29,240 nucleotides of DNA, from positions 1 through 29,240 of the IMG/VR virus record IMGVR_UViG_3300044697_000027; one strand, written 5' to 3'. The notes beneath the pieces were generated by a model, which was not told the DNA's origin, did no database searches, and saw nothing but the letters and a program-made list of their open reading frames with translations. Within the stretch, counting starts at the first letter, position 1. Each line of letters opens with the position of its first letter. Below are positions 550 through 28,603 of the stretch, one piece after another. The stretch comes from a virus. The position numbers and the translations under genes are program-made.

Positions 550-562
550 TACGGAAAATGGA
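548..562 (+). repeat. 15-base dispersed box, copy 2, spanning a stop/start junction
   Basis: AGTACGGAAAATGGA. The first two bases belong to the TAG stop of the upstream gene and the ATG of the downstream gene (558-560) lies inside the box. Confidence 0.85.
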
Positions 563-987: not shown

Positions 988-1180
988 TTTCCACATTGAC
1001 GACCGCCCGCTTGGGCCGATGCACGTCTGTGAGACGTGTGGAACCGAGTGGGATGCGGGAGAACGTTGCCCCACTTGCTCCGCCGAATGTACATGCGATG
1101 CGTATTATTACGGGCATCAGGGTATGCCGCACGCCCGAACTTGCCCGAAATACAAGAAGCCAGTACGGAAAACGGACTGA
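980..1180 (+). CDS. Small Cys-rich zinc-ribbon-like protein, 66 residues
   Basis: Two CxxC pairs (C17/C20 in CETCG and C30/C33 in CPTC) form a typical zinc ribbon, followed by further Cys and His residues (CTCDAYYYGH, HARTC) that could build a second metal site. The C-terminus reads PVRKTD, which is the 15-base box translated in a different frame from the STENE copies. TGA at 1178-1180 shares one base with the ATG of the primase-helicase, so the two are probably translationally coupled. It might be a nucleic-acid-binding accessory of replication, but that is inference from position only. Confidence 0.65.
   Translation: MNSFHIDDRPLGPMHVCETCGTEWDAGERCPTCSAECTCDAYYYGHQGMPHARTCPKYKKPVRKTD
1162..1176 (+). 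repeat. 15-base dispersed box, copy 3, exact consensus
   Basis: AGTACGGAAAACGGA in the last codons of the zinc-ribbon gene, two bases before the TGATG junction with the primase-helicase. Confidence 0.85.
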
Positions 1181-3072
1181 TGCCCGAAACTAGCCTACAG
1201 GAACTCAAGCGTCACCCGAAGGTACTTGATCTTTATCGGGCGAAGCTGTCGCTGAAGCAGGATGGCAGGCGTTGGCGCGGGCTTTGCATCTGGCACGCCG
1301 ATTCTCATGCGGGCAACTTCGACGTGTTTCAGCACCAGGGAACGTGGATTCATAAGTGTTTGAGCTGCGGAATTTCGGGCAGCGTGTTGGACCTTGTACA
1401 GAAAACGGATAATTGCGATCTACGGGCGGCGGTCAAGATTGTCCGAGAATTTACTTCCGATTTCGCGAGCGCCCGTACCCAAGTTGAAGCCGTATTCAAA
1501 CCTCTAGGAGTCCCCGATGCCCCAAAGAAAACTTATTCGGAAGAATCGTATAAAGCCCTCGAAAACGCGCTCAAGAACTCGCCCGAAGCGGTTTATTTCC
1601 TCCGATCAAGAGGAATTACTCTGGAAACGACTCAACGCCTACGAATCGGATTTCGCCAGGATGTTGGTAAACTCGCCGGAGAATCGAATGCAGATGTTGC
1701 TAGCCGAGGTTGGCTGGCGTTTCCGACGTTCGCTCGAAGCAGTGATGGCAATTCCGACTCCTTGGTCACAGGCATCAAATACCGAAGCATAACCAAGAAA
1801 GCCTTCTGCAAGCAGCCCGGAATGACGACCGAGTTGTTTAATGCGGATGCCGTGGATATGATGGAGCCCGTGTTCCTCGTGGAAGGCGAGTTTGATGCTC
1901 TGACTTTCGAGCAAGCGGGCTACAAGGCCGTGTCGCTTCCAAACGCCCAATATCAGCCGACGCCCGAAGACAAGGACTTACTTTTGTCCGCCGAGTACGT
2001 CGTCCTTGCGGGCGATAGCGACGATGCGGGCAAGAAGGCGATGCAGAAGCTTTGGGCCGAGATGAAAGAACGGACGTTCCTGCTTCAGTGGCCCGAAGGA
2101 ATTAAGGACGCGAATCAGTTCTTTCTAGAGACTTGCGGGCGAGACTTGTCCGTTTTCCGTACTAGGATTGACGGGCTGGTTCAGGAAGCCCGAACTCGGC
2201 CAATGGCCGGAATCTATAGCCTGCAAGAATCCTTGATGAACTCGACGGAAGAAAACATCAAGGACGACCCGAATCGGTTTCGGTTCTCAATCCCGAGCGT
2301 TGACCGAATGGCAATTCTGTCGCCCGGATCGGTAATTGGCGTCGTCGCGACTTCTACTGGGCAAGGGAAAACGACGTTCGTCCTGCAAGAAACTTTGGAA
2401 GCTGCCCGTAAACACGGCGAGGTCGTGCTGAACTACCAAGCCGAACTTACTATCGAACAAATTGCCCGCATCGTTACCGCCCACGTCCTGCGAAAGCATC
2501 GTCTTGAACTCACGCCCGATGATATGAAATCAGCGGCTCACGCTCTCGCGGGCGCTAAATATTATGTCGGGCGAAACGCGGCGCTGACGACAATCACGCC
2601 CGTACTCGACCTGATGGAAGCCGCAATCCGACGCTTGTCGCCTACGGTCGCGGTCCTCGATAACATCCACTACCTTGTCCGCAACGAGCAGGATCAAGTC
2701 AAGGCGATGGAAAACGCGATGCAGCGCGTAAAGTCGATGGCTGTTCTCTACGGGCTAAAATTCTTCGTCCTCGGAGCCCCCAAGAAAGCCGAATCCACGG
2801 CCAAGGGCAAGCAGTTGCATGTTACAGATGTTCGTGGTAGTGTAGCTTTTGGAGACGATTCGGACGCCGTATTCACGATTCATCGGGATATGCTGACGAA
2901 CTCCGATGACCGGAAGAACGACTATAGCCCGCAGACAAAGCTGAGGCTCGTAAAAGTTCGAGACAAGGGTCCGGGCGATGCTGAGGTAGATTTGATGTTT
3001 CTGGGCGAGATCGCAACGTTCTCGGAAATCGCCCGATTAAACGAACCGCAGTTATTTGGAGATCAACAATGA
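1180..3072 (+). CDS. Phage DNA primase-helicase (zinc finger, Toprim, RecA-type helicase)
   Basis: A 630-residue protein with the domain order of T7 gp4/Twinkle-type bifunctional replication proteins. A zinc-binding module holds C36, H39, C60 and C63 (CIWH, CLSC). A Toprim domain follows with VEGEFD at 234-239 and the acidic DSDDAG at 279-284, the catalytic metal residues for RNA primer synthesis. The DnaB-like helicase core has Walker A STGQGKTT at 392-399 and Walker B VAVLDN ending at about 495. An open frame extends upstream to 1036, but that part is antisense to sense in the zinc-ribbon frame, and the TGATG junction marks 1180. It would prime and unwind DNA at the phage fork. Two box copies lie inside it, one in each orientation. 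Confidence 0.93.
   Translation: MPETSLQELKRHPKVLDLYRAKLSLKQDGRRWRGLCIWHADSHAGNFDVFQHQGTWIHKCLSCGISGSVLDLVQKTDNCDLRAAVKIVREFTSDFASARTQVEAVFKPLGVPDAPKKTYSEESYKALENALKNSPEAVYFLRSRGITLETTQRLRIGFRQDVGKLAGESNADVASRGWLAFPTFARSSDGNSDSLVTGIKYRSITKKAFCKQPGMTTELFNADAVDMMEPVFLVEGEFDALTFEQAGYKAVSLPNAQYQPTPEDKDLLLSAEYVVLAGDSDDAGKKAMQKLWAEMKERTFLLQWPEGIKDANQFFLETCGRDLSVFRTRIDGLVQEARTRPMAGIYSLQESLMNSTEENIKDDPNRFRFSIPSVDRMAILSPGSVIGVVATSTGQGKTTFVLQETLEAARKHGEVVLNYQAELTIEQIARIVTAHVLRKHRLELTPDDMKSAAHALAGAKYYVGRNAALTTITPVLDLMEAAIRRLSPTVAVLDNIHYLVRNEQDQVKAMENAMQRVKSMAVLYGLKFFVLGAPKKAESTAKGKQLHVTDVRGSVAFGDDSDAVFTIHRDMLTNSDDRKNDYSPQTKLRLVKVRDKGPGDAEVDLMFLGEIATFSEIARLNEPQLFGDQQ
1395..1409 (+). repeat. 15-base dispersed box, copy 4
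   Basis: TGTACAGAAAACGGA (two mismatches), inside the primase-helicase just after the zinc module, read as VQKTD. Confidence 0.65.
2149..2163 (-). repeat. 15-base dispersed box, copy 5, inverted
   Basis: Exact consensus on the - strand inside the primase-helicase. It is the only copy in the left half that points against transcription. Confidence 0.75.
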
Positions 3073-3215
3073 GATTCTTTGATGTAGCCCGTAAGGATGG
3101 CGAGCTAATACGGGTGTGGGCGGATACTTATGTTTCGCAGTCGGCGTTTTCACGGGCGATCATCCGTTTTCTGTACAAATTGGATGCTTGGGTCGCCCGT
3201 AAACCAAGGACTTGA
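3069..3215 (+). CDS. Small basic hypothetical protein, 48 residues
   Basis: ATG at 3069 overlaps the helicase TGA (ATGA). The peptide begins MRFFDVARKDGELIRVWAD and ends in a basic tail ARKPRT. No family recognised. Its TGA (3213-3215) is embedded in the TTGACA -35 box of the next promoter, so this gene closes one transcription block and a new promoter begins exactly at its end. Confidence 0.6.
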   Translation: MRFFDVARKDGELIRVWADTYVSQSAFSRAIIRFLYKLDAWVARKPRT

Positions 3216-3259: not shown

Positions 3260-3445
3260 ATGGCGAAAGAGAAGGAAATCCGAGAAATGCTCGAAGCCTT
3301 TACGGGCAGCCGTCACGCAATCGAGCCTTGCGCTCAGTCTCACGACCCTCAAGTTTTTGGCAAATATTGCGGCTGCGGCGGGTGTCATTTGTGGCGCATG
3401 TTTAACCATGCGGAAGAACTTCTAGCAAGTACGGAAAACGAATAA
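3260..3445 (+). CDS. Small Cys/His-containing hypothetical protein, 61 residues
   Basis: ATG at 3260 follows AGGAGG at 3244-3249. The N-terminal half is a charged helix; the middle carries C24, then a tight CGCGGCHLW cluster that could bind metal. The C-terminus ASTENE is a translated copy of the dispersed box. TAA at 3443-3445 shares a base with the next ATG (TAATG). First gene behind the 3212 promoter; function unknown. Confidence 0.65.
   Translation: MAKEKEIREMLEAFTGSRHAIEPCAQSHDPQVFGKYCGCGGCHLWRMFNHAEELLASTENE
3428..3442 (+). repeat. 15-base dispersed box, copy 6
   Basis: AGTACGGAAAACGAA as the last five sense codons of the 3260 gene, immediately followed by the TAATG junction. Confidence 0.85.
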
Positions 3446-4095
3446 TGCCCGCACAAGAGATTGAAGTACAGACGCCCGCAGCCCGAGAGAGGCAAGAATC
3501 ACTTCTTGCCCGAGTAGACTTGTTGCTGGACGATTCACGGGCGACGCAAGAGCATTTGGCCCGAAACTTTATTCAGATCGGGATCGCGCTGCTCGAAGTC
3601 GATAAGTCGCGGGCTTGGACTTTGCGGGCAAAGTCCTCGGATCAGTACATCAAGGATTGCGAAGGTAGATTCGGGCGTGGAAGAACCGCTTTGTACGCCT
3701 ACAAATCCGTGGCCGAGAACCTTCTGCCGCACATGCCCGAACAGAAGCTCGTAGAAATCGGGATTTCGAAGGCCCAGCCGCTCGCGACGTTCGTGAAGAA
3801 TTCGGGCAAGAAACCGCCCGCAAAACTTCTGGCTGCCGCCGAGAATCCGAAAGTCGGGGTCGAAGAATTTCGGGCGTCGATTGCCGAGACGCTGCACGAA
3901 AAGCCCGAATCCGGAAAATGGTACGAGTTCTTGTCCGGATTTTACGTGTCCGCCGAGGAGAAAGCGGAGTTCGAGCGGGCGATTCAGGCAGCCAAGGCCC
4001 AGATCGAGTTGCCCGAAAACTGTTCGGAATGGTTGGAACGGAAGCTCGTAGCTCAATGTTTCGTGGCCGAGTGTCTATCAAGTTGGGGAGCGTAG
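3445..4095 (+). CDS. Helical protein, possibly DNA-binding, 216 residues
   Basis: The protein is almost entirely helical. Residues about 25 to 95 (IGIALLEVDKSRAW, then SDQYIKDCEGRFGRGRTALYAYKSVAENL) resemble the pattern seen in DUF3102-like and other phage/plasmid helix-turn-helix proteins, where a short residue-rich turn (FGRGRTALY) precedes a recognition-like helix. The C-terminal half (KPPAKLLAAAENPKVGVEEF, then an EKAEFERAIQAAKAQIEL helix) looks like a separate helical domain. Start fixed by the TAATG overlap. Its TAG stop is the first part of the next box copy. It is the largest candidate in the window for a protein that binds the dispersed box, but that is speculation; no regulator family match is certain. 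Confidence 0.7.
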   Translation: MPAQEIEVQTPAARERQESLLARVDLLLDDSRATQEHLARNFIQIGIALLEVDKSRAWTLRAKSSDQYIKDCEGRFGRGRTALYAYKSVAENLLPHMPEQKLVEIGISKAQPLATFVKNSGKKPPAKLLAAAENPKVGVEEFRASIAETLHEKPESGKWYEFLSGFYVSAEEKAEFERAIQAAKAQIELPENCSEWLERKLVAQCFVAECLSSWGA

Positions 4096-4108
4096 TACGG
4101 AAAACGAA
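4094..4108 (+). repeat. 15-base dispersed box, copy 7, at a stop codon
   Basis: AGTACGGAAAACGAA begins inside the TAG stop of the 3445 gene and ends five bases before the AGGAG of the next gene. Confidence 0.85.
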
Positions 4109-4268: not shown

Positions 4269-4643
4269 ATGAACGCTCGGAACACTTGTTGGGTGGAGAG
4301 AATCGACGGGAAGATCGTAAAAATATTTCGCTCAACTCACGGGCAGGATTGGACTCGGGCGATGGAAGCGGGGACGCTTCAAAGTTGCCCGAAGAAAGAT
4401 GCAATCGGCGCAATTCGCTCGCAAATCTGGAAACGTTGTGGCGGGCAATGCGAGTGGTGCGGAAAACGGATTACTGAAACGGGACCGCTGTGGAAACGGA
4501 TGCACATGCACGAAAAGATTCCTAAAGGTTCAGGCGGCGAAGTCTCACTTGACAATTGCGTCGGAATATGTCAGAATTGTCACGAGAATAGCCCGGAAGC
4601 TCACGGGGATCGAAAACCTCAATGGACAAAGGAGTTGGAATAG
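4269..4643 (+). CDS. HNH endonuclease
   Basis: A 124-residue protein with C61/C64 (CEWC), a beta hairpin ending MHEKIPKGSGG (H81, E82), the LDNC turn with N96, and C101/C104/H105 (CQNCH). This is the zinc-stapled HNH layout of stand-alone phage nucleases. The N-terminal 40 residues (CWVERIDGKIVKIF, strand-rich) are not part of the HNH core. The ATG follows the upstream TAA by three bases. It may be a free-standing homing or packaging-linked nuclease; terminase genes are not in this window, so the role cannot be settled. A copy of the dispersed box (one mismatch beyond the usual variants) overlaps the first CxxC codons. Confidence 0.85.
   Translation: MNARNTCWVERIDGKIVKIFRSTHGQDWTRAMEAGTLQSCPKKDAIGAIRSQIWKRCGGQCEWCGKRITETGPLWKRMHMHEKIPKGSGGEVSLDNCVGICQNCHENSPEAHGDRKPQWTKELE
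4456..4470 (+). repeat. 15-base dispersed box, variant copy 8
   Basis: GGTGCGGAAAACGGA inside the HNH gene where it encodes the residues after the first CxxC; 13 of 15 match. Could be chance. Confidence 0.5.
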
Positions 4644-4861: not shown

Positions 4862-5334
4862 TGCCAAGAGTAGAAGTTATCGTAAAGCTGAACGGCCAAT
4901 CCTTCCTGCTAACCGAAGGCGACCGGATCGAGAAGACGGTTATCATCGAGTGCAACAGCGCCCGCTGCGCTTCTAGACACGGGCAAGAGAAAGCTCAGGA
5001 AGTCTCGCTGATTGACGGGCAGCCGATGCCCGAAGCGGGAAGGCAATGGCTGTCCATTATTTTGCCCGAAACCAGCCCGCAGTATACGCCGATGCCGCCG
5101 AATTTTTGCGGACCAACTTGCGCCCGAGACTTCTTGGTTTACGATTATATCGCTCCTAGTTCTACGGGCGTCCAAGAAGTACAGAAAACGGATTCGCTAG
5201 GGCCCGAGCCAACGATAGACGATCCTCTCGGGCTGCGGGCGGAAACTATTCCGGGCGAGCAATATTCGCCCGTATCTCAAGCAGACGGCGATTCAGGCGA
5301 AGGCGAAAACCCGCAGGGTCCGAAATTTCTATGA
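4861..5334 (+). CDS. Hypothetical protein with two Cys pairs, 157 residues
   Basis: ATG at 4861 sits in a TAATG junction. The folded part covers residues 1 to about 105, strand-rich, with CNSARC and CGPTC, spaced such that the four Cys could bind one zinc. The last 50 residues are Pro/Glu/Gly-rich and probably disordered. A box copy is read in frame as VQKTD at the border between the two parts, suggesting the box is tolerated in a linker. Function unknown. Confidence 0.65.
   Translation: MPRVEVIVKLNGQSFLLTEGDRIEKTVIIECNSARCASRHGQEKAQEVSLIDGQPMPEAGRQWLSIILPETSPQYTPMPPNFCGPTCARDFLVYDYIAPSSTGVQEVQKTDSLGPEPTIDDPLGLRAETIPGEQYSPVSQADGDSGEGENPQGPKFL
5178..5192 (+). repeat. 15-base dispersed box, copy 9
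   Basis: AGTACAGAAAACGGA (one mismatch) at the start of the disordered tail of the 4861 gene. Confidence 0.75.
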
Positions 5335-6211: not shown

Positions 6212-6390
6212 TGTTTGCGTTTCCTTTCTCTCCAATCCCGTCTTACGCTTTCGCCCCGCCGCCTGCCAGACAATGGCAGGCGGCAAAGCAACGCCCGACG
6301 CAGTTCGGGGACAACAAGAATCGCCCGAGCGGTCAGAAGCATCCGCGCCCCGTACGGAAAATGGACTTGACACCGACGCCCGAAAACTGA
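6211..6390 (+). CDS. Small Pro-rich basic protein, 59 residues (tentative)
   Basis: ATG at 6211 is in a TAATG junction and the frame runs to TGA at 6388-6390. Composition is Pro, Ala, Gln, Arg-rich (FAPPPARQWQAAKQRPTQF), likely unstructured. A perfect 11-bp inverted repeat lies inside it (6258-6284), and the box plus a -35 hexamer overlap its last codons, so this stretch may instead be mainly regulatory. The TAATG junction is the main support for translation. Confidence 0.45.
   Translation: MFAFPFSPIPSYAFAPPPARQWQAAKQRPTQFGDNKNRPSGQKHPRPVRKMDLTPTPEN
6258..6284 (+). repeat. Perfect 11-bp inverted repeat (hairpin)
   Basis: GCCGCCTGCCA at 6258-6268 pairs exactly with TGGCAGGCGGC at 6274-6284 around the five-base loop GACAA. 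No T-run follows on either strand, so it is not a standard terminator; an RNA-processing or protein-binding hairpin is possible. Confidence 0.8.
6351..6365 (+). promoter_or_regulatory. 15-base dispersed box, copy 10, next to a -35 element
   Basis: CGTACGGAAAATGGA ends one base before TTGACA at 6367, an operator-like position. Confidence 0.75.
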
Positions 6391-6394
6391 TAAT
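6367..6394 (+). promoter_or_regulatory. Sigma70-type promoter
   Basis: TTGACA at 6367-6372 and GATAAT at 6389-6394, spacer 16. The start codon of the endonuclease VII-like gene (6395) directly follows the -10, so a transcript from here would start inside that gene and mainly serve the genes from 6780 on. Confidence 0.55.
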
Positions 6395-6790: not shown

Positions 6791-7475
6791 CTATCTCAAG
6801 TGGTTCAAGGCTCACGAGCGGCTCGCTATCGTTCTGATTGTCGCGGGTGTCCTGCTGTTCGTCGGAAATAAGTACCTGAACACGAGCTACGACGCGGCGG
6901 TCGCCCGAGAGAAATCCGCCGAACAAACTCTGACCACTCAGAAAGAGGCCAACGACAAACTCGCGGCTCAGAATCAGCAGGCAGTCGCTCAGTACCAAGT
7001 TCTTCTCGGGCAAGTAACGGCGGATAACAAGCGGCTGACTTCCGAGATTTCGCAGCTTTCGCAGACGCTCGCCGCCCGACAAAAGACAGATGCAGCCTTG
7101 CCGATGCCTGATCTCGCCGCCCGATGGGAATTCTTAATCGGCACTTCAGGAATCTCAAGTACGGAAAACGGATTGCTTTCTTCCCCGAGTGCAAGTCGGG
7201 CAACGGTTTCGAGCTTGGAATCGTTGCCCGTACTTCGACAACAGTTGTCCGATGAAACTGAAATATCTTCGGGCAAGGATAAGCAAATAACGTCCATGAA
7301 CGTGGTCGTTACGGGCCTTAGTGACCAGATTAATGGTCTTAACGTCCAACTAACGGATTCCGCCAAGGCGTGTCAAGCGCAAGTTGCAGTCGCCCGAAAG
7401 AGCAAGTGGCGCTGGTTCAAGTTTGGATTCGTCACGGGATTTGTCGGCGGAGTAGCGGCGGGTCACTATCTATGA
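6780..7475 (+). CDS. Membrane-anchored coiled-coil protein with C-terminal Gly-rich hydrophobic segment
   Basis: A 231-residue protein. Residues 14 to 32 form an N-terminal membrane helix (LAIVLIVAGVLLFVGNKYL); about 35 to 100 is a Gln/Ala/Leu coiled coil; a Ser/Thr-rich centre carries a box copy read as STENG; a second helical region (LSDQINGLNVQLTDSAKACQ) leads to a hydrophobic C-terminus FKFGFVTGFVGGVAAGHYL. Two membrane-facing ends joined by coiled coil suggest an envelope-spanning, spanin-like or Rz-like protein, but the far distance from the other lysis candidates makes this uncertain. GGAG upstream of ATG 6780; overlaps the previous gene by 11 bases. Confidence 0.7.
   Translation: MLDNYLKWFKAHERLAIVLIVAGVLLFVGNKYLNTSYDAAVAREKSAEQTLTTQKEANDKLAAQNQQAVAQYQVLLGQVTADNKRLTSEISQLSQTLAARQKTDAALPMPDLAARWEFLIGTSGISSTENGLLSSPSASRATVSSLESLPVLRQQLSDETEISSGKDKQITSMNVVVTGLSDQINGLNVQLTDSAKACQAQVAVARKSKWRWFKFGFVTGFVGGVAAGHYL
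7158..7172 (+). repeat. 15-base dispersed box, copy 11, exact consensus
   Basis: Inside the 6780 gene in its Ser-rich linker, read as STENG. Confidence 0.85.
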
Positions 7476-7669
7476 TCTGCGGGCATCTCAGAAGCGACGG
7501 AACGCAGTGCGGAAAACGTACTAATCGCAGATTCCACTATCACGGGGACAACGAATTGTATTGCTGGTCCGAAGAGAACGAGACGTGCTGGGCGGTTGTC
7601 CCGTTTTGCAAGATGCACGAGAAAGATCACAAGCCTTACAATCCAAAGGAATATAGGAGAAAGAAATGA
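7472..7669 (+). CDS. Cys/His-rich small protein, 65 residues
   Basis: The ATGA overlap at 7472-7475 sets the start. The protein opens MICGHLRSDGTQCGKRT, then has RRFHYHG, YCWSEENETCW, and FCKMHEKDH, giving five Cys and five His that fit one or two zinc sites. The variant box overlaps the CGKRT codons, the same residues as in the HNH gene's box copy. Function unknown. Confidence 0.65.
   Translation: MICGHLRSDGTQCGKRTNRRFHYHGDNELYCWSEENETCWAVVPFCKMHEKDHKPYNPKEYRRKK
7506..7520 (+). repeat. 15-base dispersed box, variant copy 12
   Basis: AGTGCGGAAAACGTA (13 of 15) near the start of the 7472 gene, encoding CGKRT as in copy 8. Confidence 0.5.
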
Positions 7670-8094: not shown

Positions 8095-8949
8095 ATGAAT
8101 GAAGAATTCGTTTCTCGAATTGAACTCTTGCAGCGGAAGTTTAAGAAGAGGGCCGTCAGCCTTGTCCGCCCAGAATCCGAATTCCCCGAATTAACGGTTA
8201 CCGTTCCGGACTCCTGGAACCAGGTTCAACTTGCCCCGCTGTATGACGTTCACATTGGCTCGGGCGACCACGACGCCGACTTGTTCCAGAAGCACCTGGA
8301 ATGGATCGCCAAGACCCCGAACGTCTTGACTTGGAACGGCGGAGATATGGTCGAAAACGCGACGAAATACTCGCCTGGAGCATCCGCAATTTGCCAGAAA
8401 GGAACTCCGAACGAGCAGTTATTTCAGGCAGCCAAACAATTGACCGCGATTCAGCACAAGATGCTGTTCGCAATTCCGGGCAATCACGAAGACCGAACGT
8501 TCAACGAAGCGGGCGTAGACGGGGCCCAGCAATTGGCCGAGCATCTCCGTTTACCGTACTTTCCAGATTACTGCTTCGTCACAATCAAGTGGCGCGGAAA
8601 CTCGTTCCGTGGTTGTATCCACCACGGCTCGGGCGCGGCACAGACTCCTGGAGCGCAGAGAAACGCCGCCCGCAAAGACATGCCGTGGGCTAACTTTGAT
8701 TTCTTCTGGACCGGGCATTTGCATCAGTCAATGGCTGACGTGGTTTACCGAACGGATTTCGATCAATCCACGGGCAGGATTTTTGAGCGGAATGCAATCG
8801 TGATGATCAGCCCGTCGTATGTCCGCTATTTCGGAGGATACGCCGCGAAGCGTCGTATGGCCCCCGGAAACCGAGGGCTGTCCGTGGCCGTGCTTAATGA
8901 AGATGGCCGCATTGATGTGAGTTTGCATGCTAGGGGTAAAAGAATTTGA
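8095..8949 (+). CDS. Calcineurin-like metallophosphoesterase
   Basis: A 284-residue protein with the full metallophosphoesterase signature: D51-V-H53 (YDVHIGS), GGD at 82-84, GNHE at 129-132, IHHG at 175-178 and GHLH at 207-210. These residues hold two metal ions and hydrolyse phosphodiester or phosphomonoester bonds. Stand-alone phage members are often annotated simply as metallophosphatase; DNA processing (SbcD-like) is one option given the RecA and endonuclease VII genes just downstream, but no SbcC partner is present. AGGAG precedes ATG 8095. GCCCG/CGGGC pentamers are about half as dense here as in the first 1200 bases. Confidence 0.9.
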   Translation: MNEEFVSRIELLQRKFKKRAVSLVRPESEFPELTVTVPDSWNQVQLAPLYDVHIGSGDHDADLFQKHLEWIAKTPNVLTWNGGDMVENATKYSPGASAICQKGTPNEQLFQAAKQLTAIQHKMLFAIPGNHEDRTFNEAGVDGAQQLAEHLRLPYFPDYCFVTIKWRGNSFRGCIHHGSGAAQTPGAQRNAARKDMPWANFDFFWTGHLHQSMADVVYRTDFDQSTGRIFERNAIVMISPSYVRYFGGYAAKRRMAPGNRGLSVAVLNEDGRIDVSLHARGKRI

Positions 8950-9320: not shown

Positions 9321-10306
9321 TGACCCTCCAAACCGCCAAGACGAAGATCGACAAGTTGTTCGGGAAAGGCGCTCTCTTGCGAGTCGGAGATACCGAGCAC
9401 GTTCCTGCCGAAGTTATTTCTACGGGCATCCTGAGTCTTGATCGGGCGATTCGTCCTAGTCCGTTAGGCGGATTCCCGCTAGGCCGGATCGTGGAGCTTT
9501 TCGGGCAGGAGGCCACGGGCAAAACGAGCATCGTGCTTTCGACAATCGCCGAAGCTCAGAAAGCCGGAGAAATCTGCGCCCTGATCGACGCCGAGCACGC
9601 CTTCGACCGCGATCATGCCCGCAGACTCGGGGTTGACGTAGACAATCTCTATATCAGCCAGCCGAGTTGCGGAGAAGAAGGACTGGAGATCGCCGATGAG
9701 CTCGTCCGCAGTGGAGAAGTTGCTATTGTTGCTATCGATAGTGTTGCTGCTTTGGTCCCGAAGGCCGAGCTAGAGGGACAAATGGGGGACGCTTCGATGG
9801 CCCTCCAAGCCCGAATGATGAACCAGGCTCTCAGGAAACTTACGGGCAGCGTGTCAAAGACAAATACTTGTCTGTGCTTCGTGAACCAGCTCCGCGACAA
9901 GATCGGGGCTTTTTATGGTAGCCCGACCGTAACCACGGGCGGCAAGGGTTTGAAGTTCTACGCTAGTCTGAGACTTGAAGTTTCTCGCACGGGCAACCTG
10001 AAGGACGGCGAGCAGGTTATCGGTGCCCGAACCAAGATTAAGGTCGTGAAGAACAAAATCTCGGCACCCGCAAACTACTGCGAAGTCGATCTTTTGTTTG
10101 ATCGGGGATTCAGCAAGGAAGGCGATCTCGTTGATCTTTGTACGGAAAACGGAGTAATCACCAAGAGCGGTGCGTGGTTTGAGTTTCCTGCGGGCCACGG
10201 GCGTGTACAAGGAAGAGACGCAGCGGTCGCCCGTATACGAGAAGAACTTGGAACGCAGAACTTGATTCGCTCGCAACTTATGGAAAAGCTATGCTCAAAA
10301 GAATGA
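9320..10306 (+). CDS. RecA-family recombinase
   Basis: A 328-residue protein aligned with bacterial RecA over nearly its full length: Walker A FGQEATGKTS at 61-70 (bacterial RecA usually GPESSGKT), IDAEHAFD after it, the Walker B VAIVAIDSVAALVP, the NQLRDKIG motif with the L2 region SPTVTTGGKGLKFYAS, and the C-terminal core. It is a little shorter than host RecA, mostly in the acidic C-tail, which is here replaced by a short helical end. It would catalyse strand exchange for phage recombination or replication restart. The start is set by TAATG; an upstream open extension overlaps the endonuclease gene. A box copy lies near its 3' end (CTENG). Confidence 0.93.
   Translation: MTLQTAKTKIDKLFGKGALLRVGDTEHVPAEVISTGILSLDRAIRPSPLGGFPLGRIVELFGQEATGKTSIVLSTIAEAQKAGEICALIDAEHAFDRDHARRLGVDVDNLYISQPSCGEEGLEIADELVRSGEVAIVAIDSVAALVPKAELEGQMGDASMALQARMMNQALRKLTGSVSKTNTCLCFVNQLRDKIGAFYGSPTVTTGGKGLKFYASLRLEVSRTGNLKDGEQVIGARTKIKVVKNKISAPANYCEVDLLFDRGFSKEGDLVDLCTENGVITKSGAWFEFPAGHGRVQGRDAAVARIREELGTQNLIRSQLMEKLCSKE
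10139..10153 (+). repeat. 15-base dispersed box, copy 13
   Basis: TGTACGGAAAACGGA (one mismatch) in the 3' part of the RecA gene. Confidence 0.75.
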
Positions 10307-12035: not shown

Positions 12036-12287
12036 ATGTGCGTAGTTAGTATGGTTGTAGACGGTGCTCGCGAGCAGTGGGGGCAAATTCAAAACTGGCC
12101 GTATCCCGTGGTCCAAGATATGTCGGACATTATCGAACGGTTGTCCGAGATTGACAAGAAGCTCGGGGCCAAGGACTGCTTTGATCCCAAGAAAGACGCC
12201 TTCATTCAGGAATTGTCCGAGCGATTGGCGGCTCTGGAGCAAGTGGTGAAACCCAAGAAAACGAAGAAAGTACGGAAAACGGATTAG
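12036..12287 (+). CDS. Small phage protein with MCxVSMVxD start, 83 residues
   Basis: AGGAGGAAAT precedes ATG 12036. The start MCVVSMVVDGAREQW resembles a short conserved opening (MCxVSMVxD) I have seen on small phage proteins of unknown function; the rest (DIIERLSEIDKKL, ELSERLAALEQVV) is coiled coil ending in a lysine-rich tail. The last codons are an exact box copy (KVRKTD). Its TAG stop overlaps, in TTAG, the TAA stop of the convergent - strand gene. Confidence 0.65.
   Translation: MCVVSMVVDGAREQWGQIQNWPYPVVQDMSDIIERLSEIDKKLGAKDCFDPKKDAFIQELSERLAALEQVVKPKKTKKVRKTD
12269..12283 (+). repeat. 15-base dispersed box, copy 15, exact consensus
   Basis: Last copy of the + strand block, directly before the TTAG where the two convergent genes' stops overlap. 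Confidence 0.85.
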
Positions 12288-14543: not shown

Positions 14544-14558
14544 TCCTTTTTCCGTACT
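14544..14558 (-). repeat. 15-base dispersed box, copy 16, forming a ribosome binding site
   Basis: AGTACGGAAAAAGGA on the - strand, between the stop at 14561 and the ATG at 14539; the C-to-A change makes it end in AAAGGA. Confidence 0.85.
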
Positions 14559-15057: not shown

Positions 15058-17133
15058 TTACTGGTTTGTGTAAACCACGTTCTGATCTTCGGGCTGCGAC
15101 AGCGGTTCGGTAGCCCCGCCGAGAACATTTCCCAAGGCGTTGCCCGCTCCGTATTTAACTGCGGTGCCGAGTCTACGGGCTGCGGGCGATTCTTCTAGCG
15201 TCGCTCCTATTGCCCCCGCTCTACGGAAGTTTTTCCACATACTCGGGCTATTTGCAATCTTGTCAAGTAAATCCGAACCCCGCTCGCCCGCCAATCCTAG
15301 AACGATTGGAATGGCTCCGAGTTCGCCGCCCGCATGAACCGCGTGTCCAGCCGCTCCGCCCGCAGCACTGGCTCCGCCGATAATCCCCGCTCGGACAAGT
15401 TTCTGGTAATTGGCCGCTGATTTCAGGTCGCTCGAAAGTTTATCCAAGCCCGCTTGAGCGCCCGGCATATCGAAAAGTTTTTCCTTGACTTCGGGCGGCA
15501 GGTTATCAATCTGCTTAAAGTTCTTCACGAACTTCGCGGGATTGATCTGTCCGTCTGTGCTTGCATCCGCTAATTGCTTCTGAATAATTCCTTTGCCCAA
15601 GTCCTTTACGGCAGGTTCGCCGATTGTCTCAGTTAACGTGTTAACCTTGTCAATCTTGTTTCCGCTTGAAGTCAAATATTTGAAAGCGTTATCGAGCTTC
15701 GTATCGCTCGCAACTCCGGGCGCGGACATCGCCTGCATCGCCGGACTTTGGAACAGCTTTACTTTATCCTTGTATGCCGCCCGCAAAGCATCGTAATCCT
15801 GCGCGGCTTCGGGCTTCCCCGACTGCTTCGCAAGACCCTGGATTGTGTCGTCGATCCCGTCGCGGAGTTTCTGGTAGACTTGAACGTCGGCGCGATCCGC
15901 CGAACTCGTAGCACCCTTTGTCAGTTGCCCGATCTTTTCCCCGAGTTGCTGGCGTCGCTGAACGAGTTCGTCGATTGTCAGGTCGCCCGCCTTGTTCGGT
16001 TCGGTTAAGCCGAGCAACAGCTTTTTAGTAGTGTCGGAGCCCCCGCCCAATGCCTGGAATTCTTTTCCCAACGTAGTCGTTTTATTCTCGGGCACGTCGG
16101 CGGAAGACTCTAAGAGATTGGTTGCAGCTTTCTGTAACGGGCTACCTTGATATGGGATTTTCTGTCCCTTGAGGTCGCCCGAAAGTTTCTGGATTCCGGT
16201 TTCGAAATCTCCGTGCATCTTGGTTTCAGCGTCGTTAATCTGATCGCTGATGTTCTTCCCGAGTTCGGAGCTTGTCGGGGCGTTCTTGCCCAACTCCGAG
16301 GCTTCCTGAACCGCTTTTCCGGCTTCTCCCGCTTTTTCCGTTGCTCGCCCGAGCGCACCAAAAATAGTTCCCAAAACGCCCGAAGCCAATCCGGTTTCCG
16401 CGCCTTGTTTCGCACCCTCTGCAACATCCCCCGTTTTCGCCGTAGTCTGAGCGCCCTGAACCACGCCTTGTCTGAGCGCGTCCATGCCTGTTCCTACTAA
16501 TCGGGCAAGCATCGGGCTTTTCTTCAAAGCGGCTTGTTCTTCAGGCCCGAGTTCAGCTTGGGCTTTTCCTACATCCACGCCCATTTGCAGCATCTTCATC
16601 AGACGCGGGCTTTTCTCCAAGATACCCATAACGCCCGAAATCTGCTTGAATTTGTCGGCCATGCTAAGGCCCTTGAGGGCTTCGTCGCCAAGCATGAACT
16701 CCGCGAGATTCTCCCCGCCATATCCGACCCACTGCGCGGGATTTTGCGGGCTCGGTGTGCCTTTCTGTTCGGCATCCAAGCCCGCTTGCGGAATCAATTC
16801 ATGTCCGGATAATTTTTCGGCAAGCGCGACTTGCGGGATTTTCTTTAGCCCGCTGCCGATCCCGTGAACCGTCTCCATCAAAGCATTTCCGAAGCCAGAC
16901 GAGATATCGCCCGCAACGTCGTTTACTTTGGATAATAGGGATTGATCGGGCTGTCCGCTTTCCGTACTAGGCGGGGTATCGCTCGCGCCCGCCGGGGCGG
17001 GAGTATTCGCAGGCGGTGCGTCCATCGCCCCTTGAGGCGGAGGAGGAATCTGCGGCGTTCCAGATTGCGCAGCGTCAGGATGATCTGTCGCACCCGAACT
17101 CGCGGGTTGTGGAATTTCAGGATTTTCGGCCAT
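15058..17133 (-). CDS. Large helical protein, candidate internal virion (ejection) protein
   Basis: A 691-residue protein. The first 65 residues are Pro/Ala-rich and disordered; the rest is long amphipathic helices rich in Ala, Lys, Leu and Gln (LRQGVVQGAQTTAKTGDVAEG, KLRDGIDDTIQGLAKQSGK) with a Gly/Ala-rich, weakly hydrophobic stretch near 590-640 (IIGGASAAGGAAGHAVHAGG). It lies third in a row of Ala/Gln-rich helical proteins downstream of the nozzle-like gene, the position of T7 gp16. No transglycosylase motif is visible. A box copy lies in the N-terminal disordered part. Assignment as ejection protein rests on position, size and composition. Confidence 0.55.
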   Translation of the reverse strand: MAENPEIPQPASSGATDHPDAAQSGTPQIPPPPQGAMDAPPANTPAPAGASDTPPSTESGQPDQSLLSKVNDVAGDISSGFGNALMETVHGIGSGLKKIPQVALAEKLSGHELIPQAGLDAEQKGTPSPQNPAQWVGYGGENLAEFMLGDEALKGLSMADKFKQISGVMGILEKSPRLMKMLQMGVDVGKAQAELGPEEQAALKKSPMLARLVGTGMDALRQGVVQGAQTTAKTGDVAEGAKQGAETGLASGVLGTIFGALGRATEKAGEAGKAVQEASELGKNAPTSSELGKNISDQINDAETKMHGDFETGIQKLSGDLKGQKIPYQGSPLQKAATNLLESSADVPENKTTTLGKEFQALGGGSDTTKKLLLGLTEPNKAGDLTIDELVQRRQQLGEKIGQLTKGATSSADRADVQVYQKLRDGIDDTIQGLAKQSGKPEAAQDYDALRAAYKDKVKLFQSPAMQAMSAPGVASDTKLDNAFKYLTSSGNKIDKVNTLTETIGEPAVKDLGKGIIQKQLADASTDGQINPAKFVKNFKQIDNLPPEVKEKLFDMPGAQAGLDKLSSDLKSAANYQKLVRAGIIGGASAAGGAAGHAVHAGGELGAIPIVLGLAGERGSDLLDKIANSPSMWKNFRRAGAIGATLEESPAARRLGTAVKYGAGNALGNVLGGATEPLSQPEDQNVVYTNQ
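16954..16968 (-). repeat. 15-base dispersed box, copy 17
   Basis: AGTACGGAAAGCGGA on the - strand, in the disordered N-terminal coding part of the 15058-17133 gene. Confidence 0.75.
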
Positions 17134-17135
17134 AA

Positions 17136-19328
17136 TTATTTAACGGGCGAGCCATCTATTTTGGTCCAAGGATCGCCGGATTTCCCTGTGTGGAAAATCT
17201 GAGTCCCATCCGGCATCCACTTTACGTCTGCCGGATGACCGCCCCCAGGCAATGTAATACTTTGCAAGATCGACTGCTTGTTTGGCGCGGGCTTCGGTTG
17301 TCCGCTTTGCGGATTTTGTGCGGGTTGTGGCTGCCCGTTAACTCTGGCTGCGTACCGAGGGTCCAGTTTTGCCCGAGCCTTCAGAGCGGCGGAGTCAACC
17401 TGCGGCATCGGAGCTTCGTAGACTTTGCTCGGGGCAGCGTTCTTCCACGTCTGTTCCAAACTGTCAAACTTGTCGCCCATTGACTGCGCTTGAGTTTGGA
17501 TTGAGGCATCGCGGTTTGCGAACGCTCCCAAAGTTGAAGCCATGCTCTGGATACTCTTGTCGGTTTTCGGCAAGTTGTAGAACGTCGCGAGTTCGCCCGT
17601 AAGCGTGTCAAGTTTGTTATTGAAGCGGTTGTAATCAGCCGTGCCCGGAATTCGGCTGGCGACCGTGTTCAACTCCTTCAACTCGGACATATGCTTCAAG
17701 GCCGTGGAGCCCGCGTTGAGTTGAGCACCCGCAGTCCCGTTCTTCGTGGACGTATATTCTTTAACCGCGTTCGTGTAAGCCTGAACTTTCGAGCTATCGA
17801 AATCTGGATACGCTCGGGAGACGGCTTCAAGGACTTCGGGCTTTCGAGTCAGAAGGTAATCAAGGCGGCTGAGGGCGATCTTGCCCGTACCCAATTCCTT
17901 GACCAAGGACTGAGAGCCCGCGGGCAATGAATTAAGGTAGGCGTCGCCCGTAAGGGTAGTGTCTCCTGCGTCGAAGCCTTCGGAGTCCTTCTGAAGTTTC
18001 GCTAATTCCGCTTTATCCTTTTCGCCCGTTAATTTCAAGTTGGCGAGCTTTTGTTGGCCTTCGGGCGTTGCGGCTTCTGCTGTCGCTCGGGCGGTAGCTT
18101 CCGCTCCGGCTTTCGCGCCCGCAAGATCGGCGGCCTTCTTGTCTTGAAGCTTCTTGAGATTATCCGCCCCAAACAACTCGCTCATAATGCCCGCAGCCTG
18201 CGGGTGATTCTTCTGGATCGACTTCAGTTGATCGTTGGGGTCGGTGCTCGTAGCGTCATTATGAAATTTCTCGATGGCGGACAATACCTGCGGGTTTTCC
18301 TTAATCTTGGCCGCAAGATCGACTTTATCCCCGCCAATTTCGTCGTGAACGTCGTCAAGTTCCCGCTGCGTCTGCTGGATAAGATCGAGTTTGTGGTTCA
18401 TCAGCGCGAGCGACGCGGACGTAATTGTCGCGCCTTCGGGCAAGTTAAATCCCTCTTTGGCCTTCATCAGCCCGTACTTCGCAAACTGATCGTATTTATC
18501 TTGCGTCAGCGGGGTTTGAGTCGTGCCGTCAACCACGGAATACGTGAGCTGAGACAGCGGAACGCCGTTCTTGTCGGTCGCCCGCTGACCATCGGGACCA
18601 AATGCTGGAACTTTCCCATCAGGGATCGCGATGTATTTCGTCTTGTCAAACCCCTTCTTCATCAGTTCGTTCGAAGGGATATTGGAAGCTTCGACGGCCC
18701 CGGATTTATTCCACTGGTCGAGATCGTCGGCATGGTTCTGGATTATCGAGTCTTTGGCCTCGTCATCTTCCTTGCCCGCAGCGTACGCCGAACGCATGGC
18801 TTCCATGTTCGCGGACAATACCTTGGCCTGCTGGACCTTGGTCTGCTGCTGTTGCTCGAAATCCGCCTGCGACTGCTGCGCTCGTTGCTGCGCCGCTGCC
18901 TGAGTAGGCAACGGTTGCGGAGCTGGATTCGGGCGACCTTGGCGCGACGCGACGTAGGCGTTTCCCGCCTGCCCCAGCCCGCCAAGAATGTTTGCCAGAG
19001 CGCCCTTGAGAATCTCGCCCGTAGAAAGCGGAACTTTCTCTCGGGTGACCGTTCCAGTCTGGGGGTCAATCGTGGTCTTGATTCGCGGGCCGCCCGCAAT
19101 CGTCTCGCCGACGCGCCGAATTACTCCTGCTTGCTGGACTGCCGGATGATTCGCCAGAGGGTCGGGAATCTGATCGGGCATCGTCGAGGTCGTGGGCTGA
19201 ACGGGTTGTGCAGCTTGCGCCGCCTGCGCCATTTGCGCGGCGGGAGGCTGTACGTTATCCGTACTAGCGGGGGTGCCCGTAGGTTGTGATTCTACTTCTT
19301 CGGGTGTTGCTGTCTGTTCGTCTGCCAT
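17136..19328 (-). CDS. Large helical protein, candidate internal virion (ejection) protein
   Basis: A 730-residue protein with a disordered Pro/Gln/Ala-rich N-terminus (about 65 residues), a Gln-rich helix near 130-170 (QAAAQQRAQQSQADFEQQQQ), long charged helices in the middle and a Pro/Gln-rich tail. The architecture resembles the upstream neighbour in the T7 gp15 position. The + strand of this gene stays open for 412 codons in an antisense frame, but that is a by-product of composition. AAGGAAAC precedes the ATG at 19328; TAA is two bases before the next gene. No family recognised with certainty. Confidence 0.55.
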   Translation of the reverse strand: MADEQTATPEEVESQPTGTPASTDNVQPPAAQMAQAAQAAQPVQPTTSTMPDQIPDPLANHPAVQQAGVIRRVGETIAGGPRIKTTIDPQTGTVTREKVPLSTGEILKGALANILGGLGQAGNAYVASRQGRPNPAPQPLPTQAAAQQRAQQSQADFEQQQQTKVQQAKVLSANMEAMRSAYAAGKEDDEAKDSIIQNHADDLDQWNKSGAVEASNIPSNELMKKGFDKTKYIAIPDGKVPAFGPDGQRATDKNGVPLSQLTYSVVDGTTQTPLTQDKYDQFAKYGLMKAKEGFNLPEGATITSASLALMNHKLDLIQQTQRELDDVHDEIGGDKVDLAAKIKENPQVLSAIEKFHNDATSTDPNDQLKSIQKNHPQAAGIMSELFGADNLKKLQDKKAADLAGAKAGAEATARATAEAATPEGQQKLANLKLTGEKDKAELAKLQKDSEGFDAGDTTLTGDAYLNSLPAGSQSLVKELGTGKIALSRLDYLLTRKPEVLEAVSRAYPDFDSSKVQAYTNAVKEYTSTKNGTAGAQLNAGSTALKHMSELKELNTVASRIPGTADYNRFNNKLDTLTGELATFYNLPKTDKSIQSMASTLGAFANRDASIQTQAQSMGDKFDSLEQTWKNAAPSKVYEAPMPQVDSAALKARAKLDPRYAARVNGQPQPAQNPQSGQPKPAPNKQSILQSITLPGGGHPADVKWMPDGTQIFHTGKSGDPWTKIDGSPVK
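19251..19265 (-). repeat. 15-base dispersed box, copy 18
   Basis: AGTACGGATAACGTA on the - strand, two mismatches, near the 5' end of the 730-residue gene. Confidence 0.65.
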
Positions 19329-20383: not shown

Positions 20384-20412
20384 TTGACATCCTTGTTCGT
20401 TTTCCGTACTAT
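20384..20412 (+). promoter_or_regulatory. Strong sigma70-type promoter with box copy over the -10
   Basis: TTGACA at 20384-20389, 17-base spacer, TACTAT at 20407-20412. The box in the spacer shares TACT with the -10 element. Confidence 0.8.
20396..20410 (-). promoter_or_regulatory. 15-base dispersed box, copy 19, operator-like
   Basis: AGTACGGAAAACGAA on the - strand, overlapping the spacer and -10 of the + promoter and lying 20 bases upstream of the divergent acetyltransferase-like gene. Confidence 0.85.
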
Positions 20413-20429
20413 TGGGGTTGGAGGGGAAT

Positions 20430-20756
20430 ATGATTATCACGGACGTAGACGGCTATAGGCTGAGTTTGACTAAAACTAAACTGATCGAGGTCGATCATCT
20501 AAGTGTAAATCCGTACCACGCTTTCTTATCGGATATACTAAAATCTTATGTTGCGAGACGCATCACCGATCTACGCATTCATGGGAAGGATGCAGGTGGA
20601 AGTTGGTGGGGCGGAAAGATCGGCTATCCCGCATTCATCGACCCAAAGGAGCGCAGGATCGGCTGCCGCAGATTTTCGCCCGAAACGTTTGCTCAAATCC
20701 TGAAAGCAGCGGGAGTTAAGACTGCAAAGGCACGTAAGAAATCGAAACGGAAATAG
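20430..20756 (+). CDS. Inserted + strand gene, 108 residues, own promoter
   Basis: ATG at 20430 has GGAGGGG just upstream; a TTG at 20412 would lie in the -10 and is rejected. The protein opens MIITDVDGYRLSLTKTKLI, has a central Gly/Trp-rich stretch GGSWWGGKIGYP and ends in a strongly basic tail (KTAKARKKSKRK), which suggests nucleic acid binding. No family recognised. It runs against its neighbours and its 3' end overlaps the next - strand gene by 41 bases. GCCCG/CGGGC pentamers are nearly absent (one found), a sign of recent arrival. Because a box copy covers its promoter, it is a candidate for autoregulation. Confidence 0.65.
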   Translation: MIITDVDGYRLSLTKTKLIEVDHLSVNPYHAFLSDILKSYVARRITDLRIHGKDAGGSWWGGKIGYPAFIDPKERRIGCRRFSPETFAQILKAAGVKTAKARKKSKRK

Positions 20757-21401: not shown

Positions 21402-21416
21402 TCCGCTTTCCGTATT
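21402..21416 (-). repeat. 15-base dispersed box, copy 20, at a stop/start junction
   Basis: AATACGGAAAGCGGA on the - strand starts in the TAA stop of the nozzle-like gene and ends two bases before the next ATG. Confidence 0.75.
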
Positions 21417-24400
21417 ATTGTTCTTGCAGAATGGCCCCAAAAATCGAGCACGTCCAGAGGGAATTCTGCGCGTTTTCAGCCGGGAAGCTGATCTGGTATT
21501 GAAGACTTCGACAAACTGCGGGTTCCTGCGTCTGGGCCAGATAAAATCTCTGGCTGAGAATCGACGTTGACCGAGGCAACGTCGGCGGGTCTTCGATCCA
21601 TTCCGGAATGTTCTCGAAGCTGCCCGTAAAATAAGGGACGGCTTCATCAAGAATCACGCCCATTGATAGCGGGCTTCCAACTGCCGCGCTGTCGGTGGTG
21701 ATGAACGCCACTTCCGCGAGTTGTCCGGGATTCGCCAGAACGTGGCTCCCGACCGTGGCGAACCAAGTATAATTTTGCCCGTTATCCTGGAACTGCGTAA
21801 TGTTTCGGGCAAGAATAGGTCCAGTTGTCGGGCTTCCGATCAGAAGTTGATGAACGCCCGGAGACGTTTCAATCGACATCACGGCTTCGGCACCGCCTAC
21901 GATAGTCGCGAACGGAGAGATCGTCACGCCTTGTTCGGGGCTAGGAGTGACTCCGATTCTGTACCAGCCCGTCGTTCCGTCAGACAAGAACCAAGCCTTG
22001 TCCTCGCCCGAAGAATGCCAAGTAACGTAGGCGGTATTTGGATTCCACGGAGCAACCTGCAAGAGATTGCCGATATTGAATCCGGTTTCCGAAGGCCCGG
22101 AGGAAATATCCAAGGTGTTGAACGTTGAGTCCGATGCGAAGAATCCGACACTCGAACCAAAGACATCCAAAGCATTGTAGTTCAGAAGCCCGAGACCTTG
22201 AGCGTAAAGAACCGCAGGCGGGATCGCGCCGCCTGTATTCGATATCAGATAGATGTCTGAAACCGTAAAGATAAAGATTCCGACGATTGTAGGGACCAAT
22301 CGGGTGACCTTGGACGGAAGCTCCTGGAAGTTGTCGGGGCCCGTGCCTTCGAAGCCATTGCCTACGGGCGTGTCGGGACCCGAAGTGTAATACACGGTAT
22401 TCCCGATGCTGTAGAAAATCCGCTGAAGGTATTGCGCGAGGTTGATCGAGCCGAGCGCCGGAGGCGTGTTCTGCCCCGCAATCGGACCTTCGATTAGGTT
22501 GTTCAGGCCCGTATCCGGAGTGTCGTCGTAATACCCGTTTACAATATAATCGGGCAATGGAATCGTCCAGATCGCGTTCGTCGTGCCCGAGATCAGGAAC
22601 GGCGTCGTCAGCCCGTCCGTTGTCCGGAAAATGGCTACGTAATCCGCCTGCGGATCGATATTCGCCAGAGGCGGAAGTCCGCCCGTGATTTGAACGCCCG
22701 CAGCGCCAATAAAGTTCCCCGTGGCCGTGCTTGCAGGAGACGCATTCGAAACCGTGTCCGTGAGCGAGTTCACTAACGCGACGTAGTAAATATACCCGCC
22801 GTTAAATGCCGAAAGTGTTCCGGGCGGCGGCGCGGGGCCGGGGCCTTGGTTGATCCAGATCAAATTAGGGTTATCGAGCGTAAGCTGATTGACGCCCGTG
22901 GCGAATGTTGGGACGGTAGACCCGGTGATTCCGGCTCGGAACGGAGCTTCGGTGTTGTTGTTCGGGTCGGTGATCGTAGTATCGGGCAACGTATAGGTAA
23001 CGCCCGCCGCCCATACCGCGTCCGTGATCGGACCAAGGTTCGCCCAACTGAGCGGGCCAGGGCCGTTGCCGCCCGTGCTCAAAGTACCGCCCGTATTCAA
23101 AGTACTCATGCCAGCGTCGTTCATTTCCGACACCGTTGCGTAATTAGGCGCAAAAGATGTCGAGAAAGCGGGCCAATTCGGAGCGGTCGTGCCCGTTTCT
23201 GCGGGTCCCGGAACAGGAGTTTGCCCGTTGCAATACAACGCCAAAAATTGGGGGATCGATGTATCAGATTTAGCGAAATCAATTTCGAACGGGAAGTTCC
23301 CAGCCACGGGGAAATTGATTACGAAAGTATCCTGCGATGCGCCTGTGACGTTGTTTGCTCCCAAGACTGGATAGCCTTGAAGGGCCGTCAGGGTCGCGAC
23401 GGGCGCGGGACAGTTGGTTGGGCCCGAGATTCGGGCGGGCTGGCTTCCGCCCGAAGGTCCGATCCCCCAGAACATTCCGTCGTTGTGAAAAATCGTGAAG
23501 CTGTACTGCCCCGCAACAGGTACGGAAAACGTACCGAATACAACCATTGTGTAGTTGCCGGGTGTGGCGTGAATGTACGGGACCGTATAGCCCGTAATAT
23601 CTCCGGCAGCGGATAGCGTGGCCCACTGCAAAGGGTCGGTTATACTGGAAATCTGGCCGGGGTTAAATAAGACGCTGTTCCCGTTCGCCGTTGCGACCAA
23701 CCCGTAAGGAGCTACGCCGGGGTTGTTCGGGCCATCGACAGGATTTCGGAGTTCGCACGAGCCGTCGTACGTCCCTGAATTATGCGGATAGAAATTCGCC
23801 GTAACATAGACACCCAAAACTTCTTCAAACGTCGGGTATGGGTTGGGCTGGAGCTGGAATAGGCTGTTGGTGCCTGCGGCATTCGCGACGATCAGGTGAT
23901 CGACAGGAAATACCGTGCTCGGGCTCCACGTCGAATTACTCGAAAACGTGCTGGAAACGTTCAACCAAGTTACGCCGCCGTCCGTAACCGTGGTAGTACC
24001 CGCAGTCGGGTTGCTCGTGAAGGGATTCGCCCCGCCAGATTTTCCGGCAACAGTAACCTGCCAGATATTCGTTTGCCCGGCGAACTGAGTATCGATTACC
24101 GCGCCGACAAGCGAGAAAAACGTATCAGCTTTCCACGCGATGCCCGAAGTTCCGACCACAATATTCGGCGCAGTCGTGCCCGCAGCAATCCCGAAATTCT
24201 CCAGCGGACTTCCGCGATTGATCCAGACAGCCGTACCGTCAATCGTGATTCCGCCTTGGAAGTCGTTTCCGGCGTCGGGAACCTGCGTGTTCCAAACAGG
24301 CACGCTCGCGCCCGTAACGGGGATTCCGCCTTGGGCGTCCGTAACATTGCCCGTATCCGCCGCAGAAGCGTAATCCGCGTGGATGATATTCAGAAGATTG

Positions 24401-25194: not shown

Positions 25195-25209
25195 TCCTTT
25201 TTCCGTACT
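25195..25209 (-). repeat. 15-base dispersed box, copy 22, forming a ribosome binding site
   Basis: AGTACGGAAAAAGGA on the - strand starts in the TAG stop of the upstream adaptor-like gene and supplies AAAGGA for the nozzle-like ATG at 25191; same variant as copy 16. Confidence 0.85.
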
Positions 25210-26115: not shown

Positions 26116-26144
26116 TTGACGGATACTTCGGAATTTGGTATGAT
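26116..26144 (+). promoter_or_regulatory. Sigma70-type promoter for the inserted HNH gene
   Basis: TTGACG at 26116-26121, 17-base spacer, TATGAT at 26139-26144. Expected transcription start near 26151, about two bases before the ATG. Confidence 0.75.
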
Positions 26145-28393: not shown

Positions 28394-28603
28394 TTATTGT
28401 CCGTTTCCCGTACTAGTTGACGCGGGCGTATTCGATTGGACCCAAGCATGCCCGCCAAGAAAACCCAAGACGGTGGTCGTGAACGCGACGAATGCGGCAT
28501 CAATCCCGTGAATATAATGAATAACCGAACCCACGACGAAGATGAACAATCCGATCCCTACGTGCCCGTCAGTATTCAGTTTTGTTAGAATTTTACTAAG
28601 CAT
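28394..28603 (-). CDS. Small two-pass membrane protein, holin-like
   Basis: A 69-residue protein with a short amphipathic start, hydrophobic segments at about 16-33 (GIGLFIFVVGSVIHYIHG) and 36-51 (AAFVAFTTTVLGFLGG), and a Ser/Thr tail ending STGNGQ, which is the box copy translated. The hairpin of two membrane helices and size fit class II holins, but the place inside the virion block is unusual. TAA is directly followed by the ATG of the 27089 gene. Confidence 0.6.
   Translation of the reverse strand: MLSKILTKLNTDGHVGIGLFIFVVGSVIHYIHGIDAAFVAFTTTVLGFLGGHAWVQSNTPASTSTGNGQ
28400..28414 (-). repeat. 15-base dispersed box, copy 23
   Basis: AGTACGGGAAACGGA (one mismatch) on the - strand in the last codons of the membrane protein gene. 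Confidence 0.75.

Follow-up and report, generated by a model that had tools for sequence, protein, structure and literature searches.

The window analyzed here, a virus record of 29,240 bases, consists of a replication half read from the plus strand and a structural half read from the minus strand. Against the minus-strand structural operon stands a lone plus-strand gene (20430 to 20756), and the promoter-like sequence ahead of it is overlapped by a copy of a short box that recurs across the window. This arrangement raises the question of whether the box is an operator, which genes such an operator would control, and which phage protein might read it.

Genomes and definitions

The window was compared with related genomes, chiefly its closest relative (G003) and two large relatives, G001 (IMG/VR 3300050821_004371, 91.5 kb) and G002 (IMG/VR 3300021401_000004, 93.0 kb). 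Box copies were defined as matches to AGTACGGAAAACGGA within 2 mismatches, and sigma70 promoters were scanned for in six genomes. The relatives are nearly all metagenome assemblies and most genomes are fragments; gene calls were made within this analysis, and several of the counts given below rest on related genomes. A tyrosine integrase is found in G001, G002, and G004 and none in the window fragment, and the integrases fit temperate phages. No host or prophage relatives carrying the conserved structural protein were found among genome contigs.

A promoter partly made by its opposing box

A −35 and a −10 hexamer separated by a 17-nt spacer (20390 to 20406) lie exactly where the preliminary description of this locus had placed a sigma70 promoter for the plus-strand gene (Table 1). 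That promoter had been called near-perfect, which holds for the −35 hexamer and fails for the −10 hexamer, with 10 of the 12 hexamer bases agreeing with the consensus overall. The claim that a box on the opposite strand covers part of the spacer and four bases of the −10 was borne out: 11 spacer bases and four −10 bases (20407 to 20410) are covered, and the motif is recognizable out to about 20393 to 20412. Box and −10 are not independent: the box edge alone reads TACTA, and TAGTACGG gives CCGTACTA when reverse complemented, so that the box makes part of the hexamer.

The starts of the plus-strand gene and of the minus-strand gene on the other side of the box (19999 to 20376) are each 19 nt away from the box. 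The 20430 open reading frame is weakly supported as a coding gene by codon bias. We found no intrinsic terminator downstream of 20756, so transcripts started at the promoter would continue in antisense into the structural operon, and this may be a reason to silence the promoter when the late genes are on.

Table 1. Features of the promoter locus and box copies elsewhere in the window
Feature	Coordinates	Strand	Remarks
−35 hexamer TTGACA	20384..20389	+	6/6 match; invariant at the locus in the window, G003, G001, and G002
−10 hexamer TACTAT, partly box-made	20407..20412	+	4/6 match; invariant in the same four genomes
Box (putative operator), core AGTACGGAAAACGAA	20396..20410	−	1 mismatch to AGTACGGAAAACGGA; matrix score 27.6, among the best copies
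Shine-Dalgarno GGAGGGG of the plus-strand gene	20420..20426	+	leader TTGGAGG kept in the window, G003, G001, and G002
Accessory (moron-like) gene, 108 aa, basic C terminus	20430..20756 (ATG 20430)	+	homologues: same promoter in G003; near integrase in G001, G002, and G004
Minus-operon gene, 125 aa	19999..20376	−	orthologues in G001, G002, G003, and G013
Box	153..167	+	conserved in G003 and G002; 1 change in G001
Box overlapping start of ORF 558	548..562	+	
Box, perfect	1162..1176	+	
Box	1395..1409	+	
Box, antisense inside primase gene	2149..2163	−	site kept in relatives with 1-2 changes
Box	3163..3177	−	
Box, 2 nt before ORF 3445	3428..3442	+	
Box	4094..4108	+	
Box	4456..4470	+	unchanged in G001, G002, and G003
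Box	5178..5192	+	unchanged in G001 and G003
Box abutting −35 of promoter 6367-6396	6351..6365	+	
Box inside gene 6780-7475	7158..7172	+	unchanged in three relatives
Box	7506..7520	+	
Box, antisense in gene	8546..8560	−	
Box inside recA	10139..10153	+	unchanged in three relatives
Box, perfect	12269..12283	+	
Box, 4 nt before ORF 14129-14539	14544..14558	−	
Box	16954..16968	−	unchanged in three relatives
Box	19251..19265	−	
Box, 2 nt before ORF 20716-21399	21402..21416	−	
Box, antisense in gene	23519..23533	+	not conserved
Box before ORF 21415-25191	25195..25209	−	here in G001 and G002: box-embedded promoter with swapped small genes
Box before ORF 27089-28393	28400..28414	−	

The box is a dispersed, asymmetric, and conserved motif

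The window holds 24 box copies, where Markov shuffles expect about 0.1 and the reversed-motif control yields 0. Within 2 mismatches, G001 has 63 copies and G002 has 64, with 0 in the reversed-motif controls, and a matrix scan finds about 100 boxes per ~92-kb genome, with 1 or 2 in the reversed-sequence control. The sequence logo gives an asymmetric motif of 15 to 18 bp lacking conserved companion elements. Boxes are 3.7-fold denser in noncoding than in coding DNA (2.62 versus 0.70 per kb), and with respect to local transcription 190 are in syn and 60 in anti orientation. About a quarter (70 of 297) are linked to a gene start; the boxes lie mostly outside promoters, and most are found inside genes or at a distance from gene starts, on both strands. 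The intragenic boxes at 7158, 10139, 4456, 5178, and 16954 are identical in relatives within flanking DNA of 69 to 80% identity, which indicates selection on the DNA site itself.

The motif is absent from the acidobacterial phage Tunturi_4, which gave a distant primase match. A search of all viral contigs for the promoter pattern brought up one extra contig (L080) with a couple of boxes, which we took as chance, and it was rejected as a further member of the group. In a more distant relative, G013 (L068-L071), the boxes are sparser and of a relaxed form, TACGGAAA[A/C/G]CGGA, which suggests drift of a putative binder's specificity.

Box-embedded promoters recur in a fixed register

The layout at 20384 to 20412 is seen repeatedly in these genomes: TTGACA, six free bases, an antisense box, and the box edge as the −10. 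The register is fixed, in that at 14 promoters in the six genomes the box starts 12 nt after the start of the −35 and the spacer is 17 nt, with two further promoters having a spacer of 18; a registered TTGAC(A/T) thereby accompanies 16 of 297 strong boxes. An exact TTGACA at the offset of the 17-nt spacer is present at 13 of 350 boxes, where about 0.2 are expected per offset. Counted from the side of the promoters, 17 of the 39 that score at least 12.5 overlap a box (1.6 expected), as do 11 of the 20 that score at least 14 (0.8 expected); these overlaps are partly built in, because the box supplies a −10-like edge, and the −35 statistic is unaffected by this. The 16 promoters fall into 13 groups by downstream sequence and into ~10 loci when orthologous positions are merged, and the Poisson chance of ten or more independent loci is about 2e-9. 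Among 11 representative promoters with a 17-nt spacer, the first six spacer bases vary and the box part is nearly invariant, which from the sequences would mean a constraint beyond what RNA polymerase alone imposes. In the two large genomes no box-promoter was recognized for most gene runs, and a strong promoter in the divergent control region of G001 (25912 to 25940) is free of a box.

The preliminary description had regarded this copy of the box as a true operator, and both the preservation of the overlap in four genomes and the fixed register at about ten independent promoters argue for that assignment. We consider it probable, though by no means certain, that the box at 20396 to 20410 is an operator within a stoperator-like, genome-wide regulon that silences the promoters of accessory genes. 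The account that follows, as regards binding, repression, timing, and the identity of the protein, is one that we infer from the sequence, geometry, conservation, and recurrence of the box. TTGACA-17-TACTAT would be recognized by host RNA polymerase carrying its main sigma factor, and the lone plus-strand gene would be transcribed against the structural operon. A DNA-binding phage protein seated on the box would hide the spacer and the −10 and so keep the open complex from forming. The accessory genes would be on while this protein is absent, just after infection, and off later or in the prophage; the same architecture serves several exchangeable accessory genes, including DNA methyltransferases. 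The remaining boxes, mostly oriented along transcription and enriched between genes, are probably sites for this protein too, working as stoperator-like roadblocks.

An unlikely alternative, and the one to which we give the most weight, is that the box has a nontranscriptional DNA function, such as partition, genome organization, replication, or packaging, and that accessory promoters exapted it as a −10. The position of most copies, which are intragenic or away from gene starts and on both strands, is what such a function would lead one to expect, and the protein encoded at 3445 to 4095, conserved in the box-bearing relatives, has a weak hint of a ParB/Spo0J-like fold (6s6h). Exaptation of this kind is, however, hard to square with the constant position of the box relative to the −10 at about ten independent promoters, with the near-invariance of the box part of the spacer, or with the orientation bias along transcription.

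Exchange of genes behind a conserved promoter and putative operator

The promoter and box occupy the orthologous place in the window, G003, G001, and G002, and all 12 hexamer bases are invariant among them while the gene body changes. G003 reads TTGACATTCCTGTTCATTTTCCGTACTAT with a 20430 homologue behind it, and the minus-strand gene on the other side differs from that of the window. G001 and G002 agree with the window in promoter, box, and TTGGAGGG leader, but the small gene behind them (MRITVQVTQRDI...) is unrelated and in G001 is internally deleted and truncated; G013 has no gene at this place. The conserved unit is thus a promoter, a putative operator, and a ribosome site, with an exchangeable gene. 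At a second locus with a swapped gene, the promoters at G001 70737 and G002 51874 are identical. Lone opposite-strand genes with a box-embedded promoter within structural arms are found at 20430 in the window, 22005 in G003, 70772 and 73788 in G001, and 42828 in G002. A counter-example is the HNH endonuclease gene at 26153 to 27079 of the window, which faces the structural operon behind a promoter of its own, TTGACG-17-TATGAT (26116 to 26144), with no box.

Unrelated accessory genes in these phages thus share the same strong promoter sequence. Behind box-embedded promoters we found an MT-A70 adenine methyltransferase (PF05063; G002 42828-43409), two cytosine-5 methyltransferase-like open reading frames (G002 63100 and G005 14815, in which FAGAGG and PCQ motifs were recognized by eye), a small protein whose N terminus is signal-like, and several orphans. 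The MT-A70 and C5 methyltransferases are the sole hint at an anti-defense role. The two C5 methyltransferase-like open reading frames have a common N-terminal part and different C-terminal parts.

Swapping of this kind could also mean that promoter and box are mainly a recombination anchor for exchanging small gene cassettes, with regulation secondary. Two loci have identical or near-identical promoters and unrelated genes (the window and G003 versus G001 and G002; G001 70737 versus G002 51874), and at the first of them the 3′ flanks are common as well. We nevertheless regard an anchor as improbable: most boxes have no adjoining cassette, and inside promoters the box stays near its consensus, where any homologous sequence would suffice for recombination.

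Still more improbable, in our estimate, is that the protein on the site is an activator and not a repressor, or that the site is an element for a phage-specific sigma factor or polymerase. There is a minor second geometry, in which a box on the same strand lies directly upstream of the −35 and starts 16 nt before it, and this position is typical of activators. The box at 20396 to 20410, in contrast, overlaps the −10 and the spacer of a promoter whose hexamers come so close to consensus that no activator is needed. A search for a single-subunit RNA polymerase domain (PF00940) found none, with its control equally silent, and the motif comes without companion elements. Finally, it would be very surprising if the arrangement were a coincidence, a box serving the minus-strand gene 19999-20376 beneath a chance promoter-like sequence: the box does lie close to the start of that gene, on its sense strand like many others, and itself yields a −10-like edge, but both hexamers are kept in four genomes and the register recurs far beyond chance at independent loci.

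Candidate binding proteins

If the box is an operator, as we favor, a phage protein should bind it. The suggestion that the controlled gene encodes this protein did not hold up. An unrelated gene stands behind the same promoter in G001 and G002, and the 20430 family (five members, 36 to 42% identical) gave no match in Pfam or PHROG; a structure model of the 20430 protein (pLDDT 71) has no helix-turn-helix (HTH) and matched no fold in the PDB or viral libraries. We therefore rejected it as the box binder. Its homologues in G001, G002, and G004 (L053:13118-13444, L061:8160-8477, L064:3985-4188) lie beside the integrase without a box-embedded promoter, a position that does not demonstrate DNA binding.

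The 10558 protein, the other binder proposed earlier, has a sigma-r4-like HTH and was likewise set aside: the window and G003 proteins do not have the recognition helix of the G001 and G002 proteins, although all four genomes share the same box, and G013, which bears the box, lacks the HTH. The genes adjoining the box at 20396 to 20410 gave no HTH match in Pfam or PHROG, and when 53 small proteins of G001 were scanned against Pfam, the 25 listed of 35 families included no phage repressor family. A possible box binder, as a lead only, is the predicted helical protein of 216 aa encoded at 3445 to 4095, which is conserved in the relatives that cover the region and has a weak similarity to the ParB/Spo0J DNA-binding domain (6s6h, probability 0.51, E value 0.94).

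Comparison with known systems

The mycobacteriophage L5 and its Cluster A relatives have 20 to 30 asymmetric sites, mostly oriented along transcription and some of them in promoters, which block initiation and elongation (PMC9283540, PMC6550527). Systems of the L5 type also have a repressor that joins an HTH to a Stoperator domain and binds as a monomer, and their block of elongation depends on the orientation of the site. The box system is similar in being a short asymmetric site spread across the genomes of apparently temperate phages, mostly in syn with transcription, and in that a few sites are operators inside promoters and most are not (here, the registered 16 of 297 strong boxes). It differs in its sequence and in having 2 to 3 times more copies (63 to 64 within 2 mismatches versus 20 to 30), and unlike in Cluster A, many accessory promoters carry a putative operator, with the box facing against the direction of the promoter, for a repressor that is so far a presumed one.

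In archaeal viruses, conserved early promoters precede anti-defense genes and are proposed to be repressed by Aca8 (PMC11065993). The likeness, one strong promoter sequence before several unrelated accessory genes, rests here on sequence, with early expression and an anti-defense role being putative; the promoter in our phages is in contrast a bacterial sigma70 promoter, and its site is also dispersed genome-wide without promoters. Promoters of Aca-regulated anti-CRISPR genes such as acrIF23-24 carry inverted-repeat operators whose HTH reader is encoded in the same locus (PMC9001735). There, too, the operator lies between the −35 and −10 of a small accessory-gene promoter, whereas the box is asymmetric and has no adjacent HTH gene. 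Phage-specific, genome-wide repeats of which many lie near starts are also known from Cluster O, where the 17-bp repeats are dyads (PMC4351075), and from Cluster K, where start-associated sequences occur almost only a few bp before starts (PMC3203893); the box logo shows no dyad symmetry, unlike the former, and only about a quarter of boxes are start-linked, unlike the latter. By analogy, the box system resembles the operator/stoperator class and the archaeal anti-defense promoter class, a resemblance that falls short of proven membership in either.

If the operator reading is right, these uncultured phages, known only from metagenomes, would have a second, unrelated L5-like system of dispersed repressor sites, and one whose clear promoter operators would make binding and repression directly testable. 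We also put forward, tentatively and with more doubt than confidence, a broader possibility: that in this bacterial phage lineage one dispersed asymmetric operator supplies both genome-wide stoperators and the off switch of a promoter cartridge for swapped accessory genes, probably for anti-restriction and other anti-defense functions, so that the promoter-box signature alone might find new anti-defense genes. The cartridge would also offer a sequence handle for small accessory genes, as in the archaeal-virus work (PMC11065993).

Other sequence features

At 6351 to 6396, where a promoter has a same-strand box immediately next to its −35, the −10 runs into the start codon (TAATATG), and this layout has similar counterparts in G003 and G002. 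GCCCG-containing words are among the commonest 10-mers of G013. In the window, CGGGC/GCCCG is about 4.9 times commoner than base composition predicts (399 versus 82), and TTCGGGC is about 17 times above that prediction.
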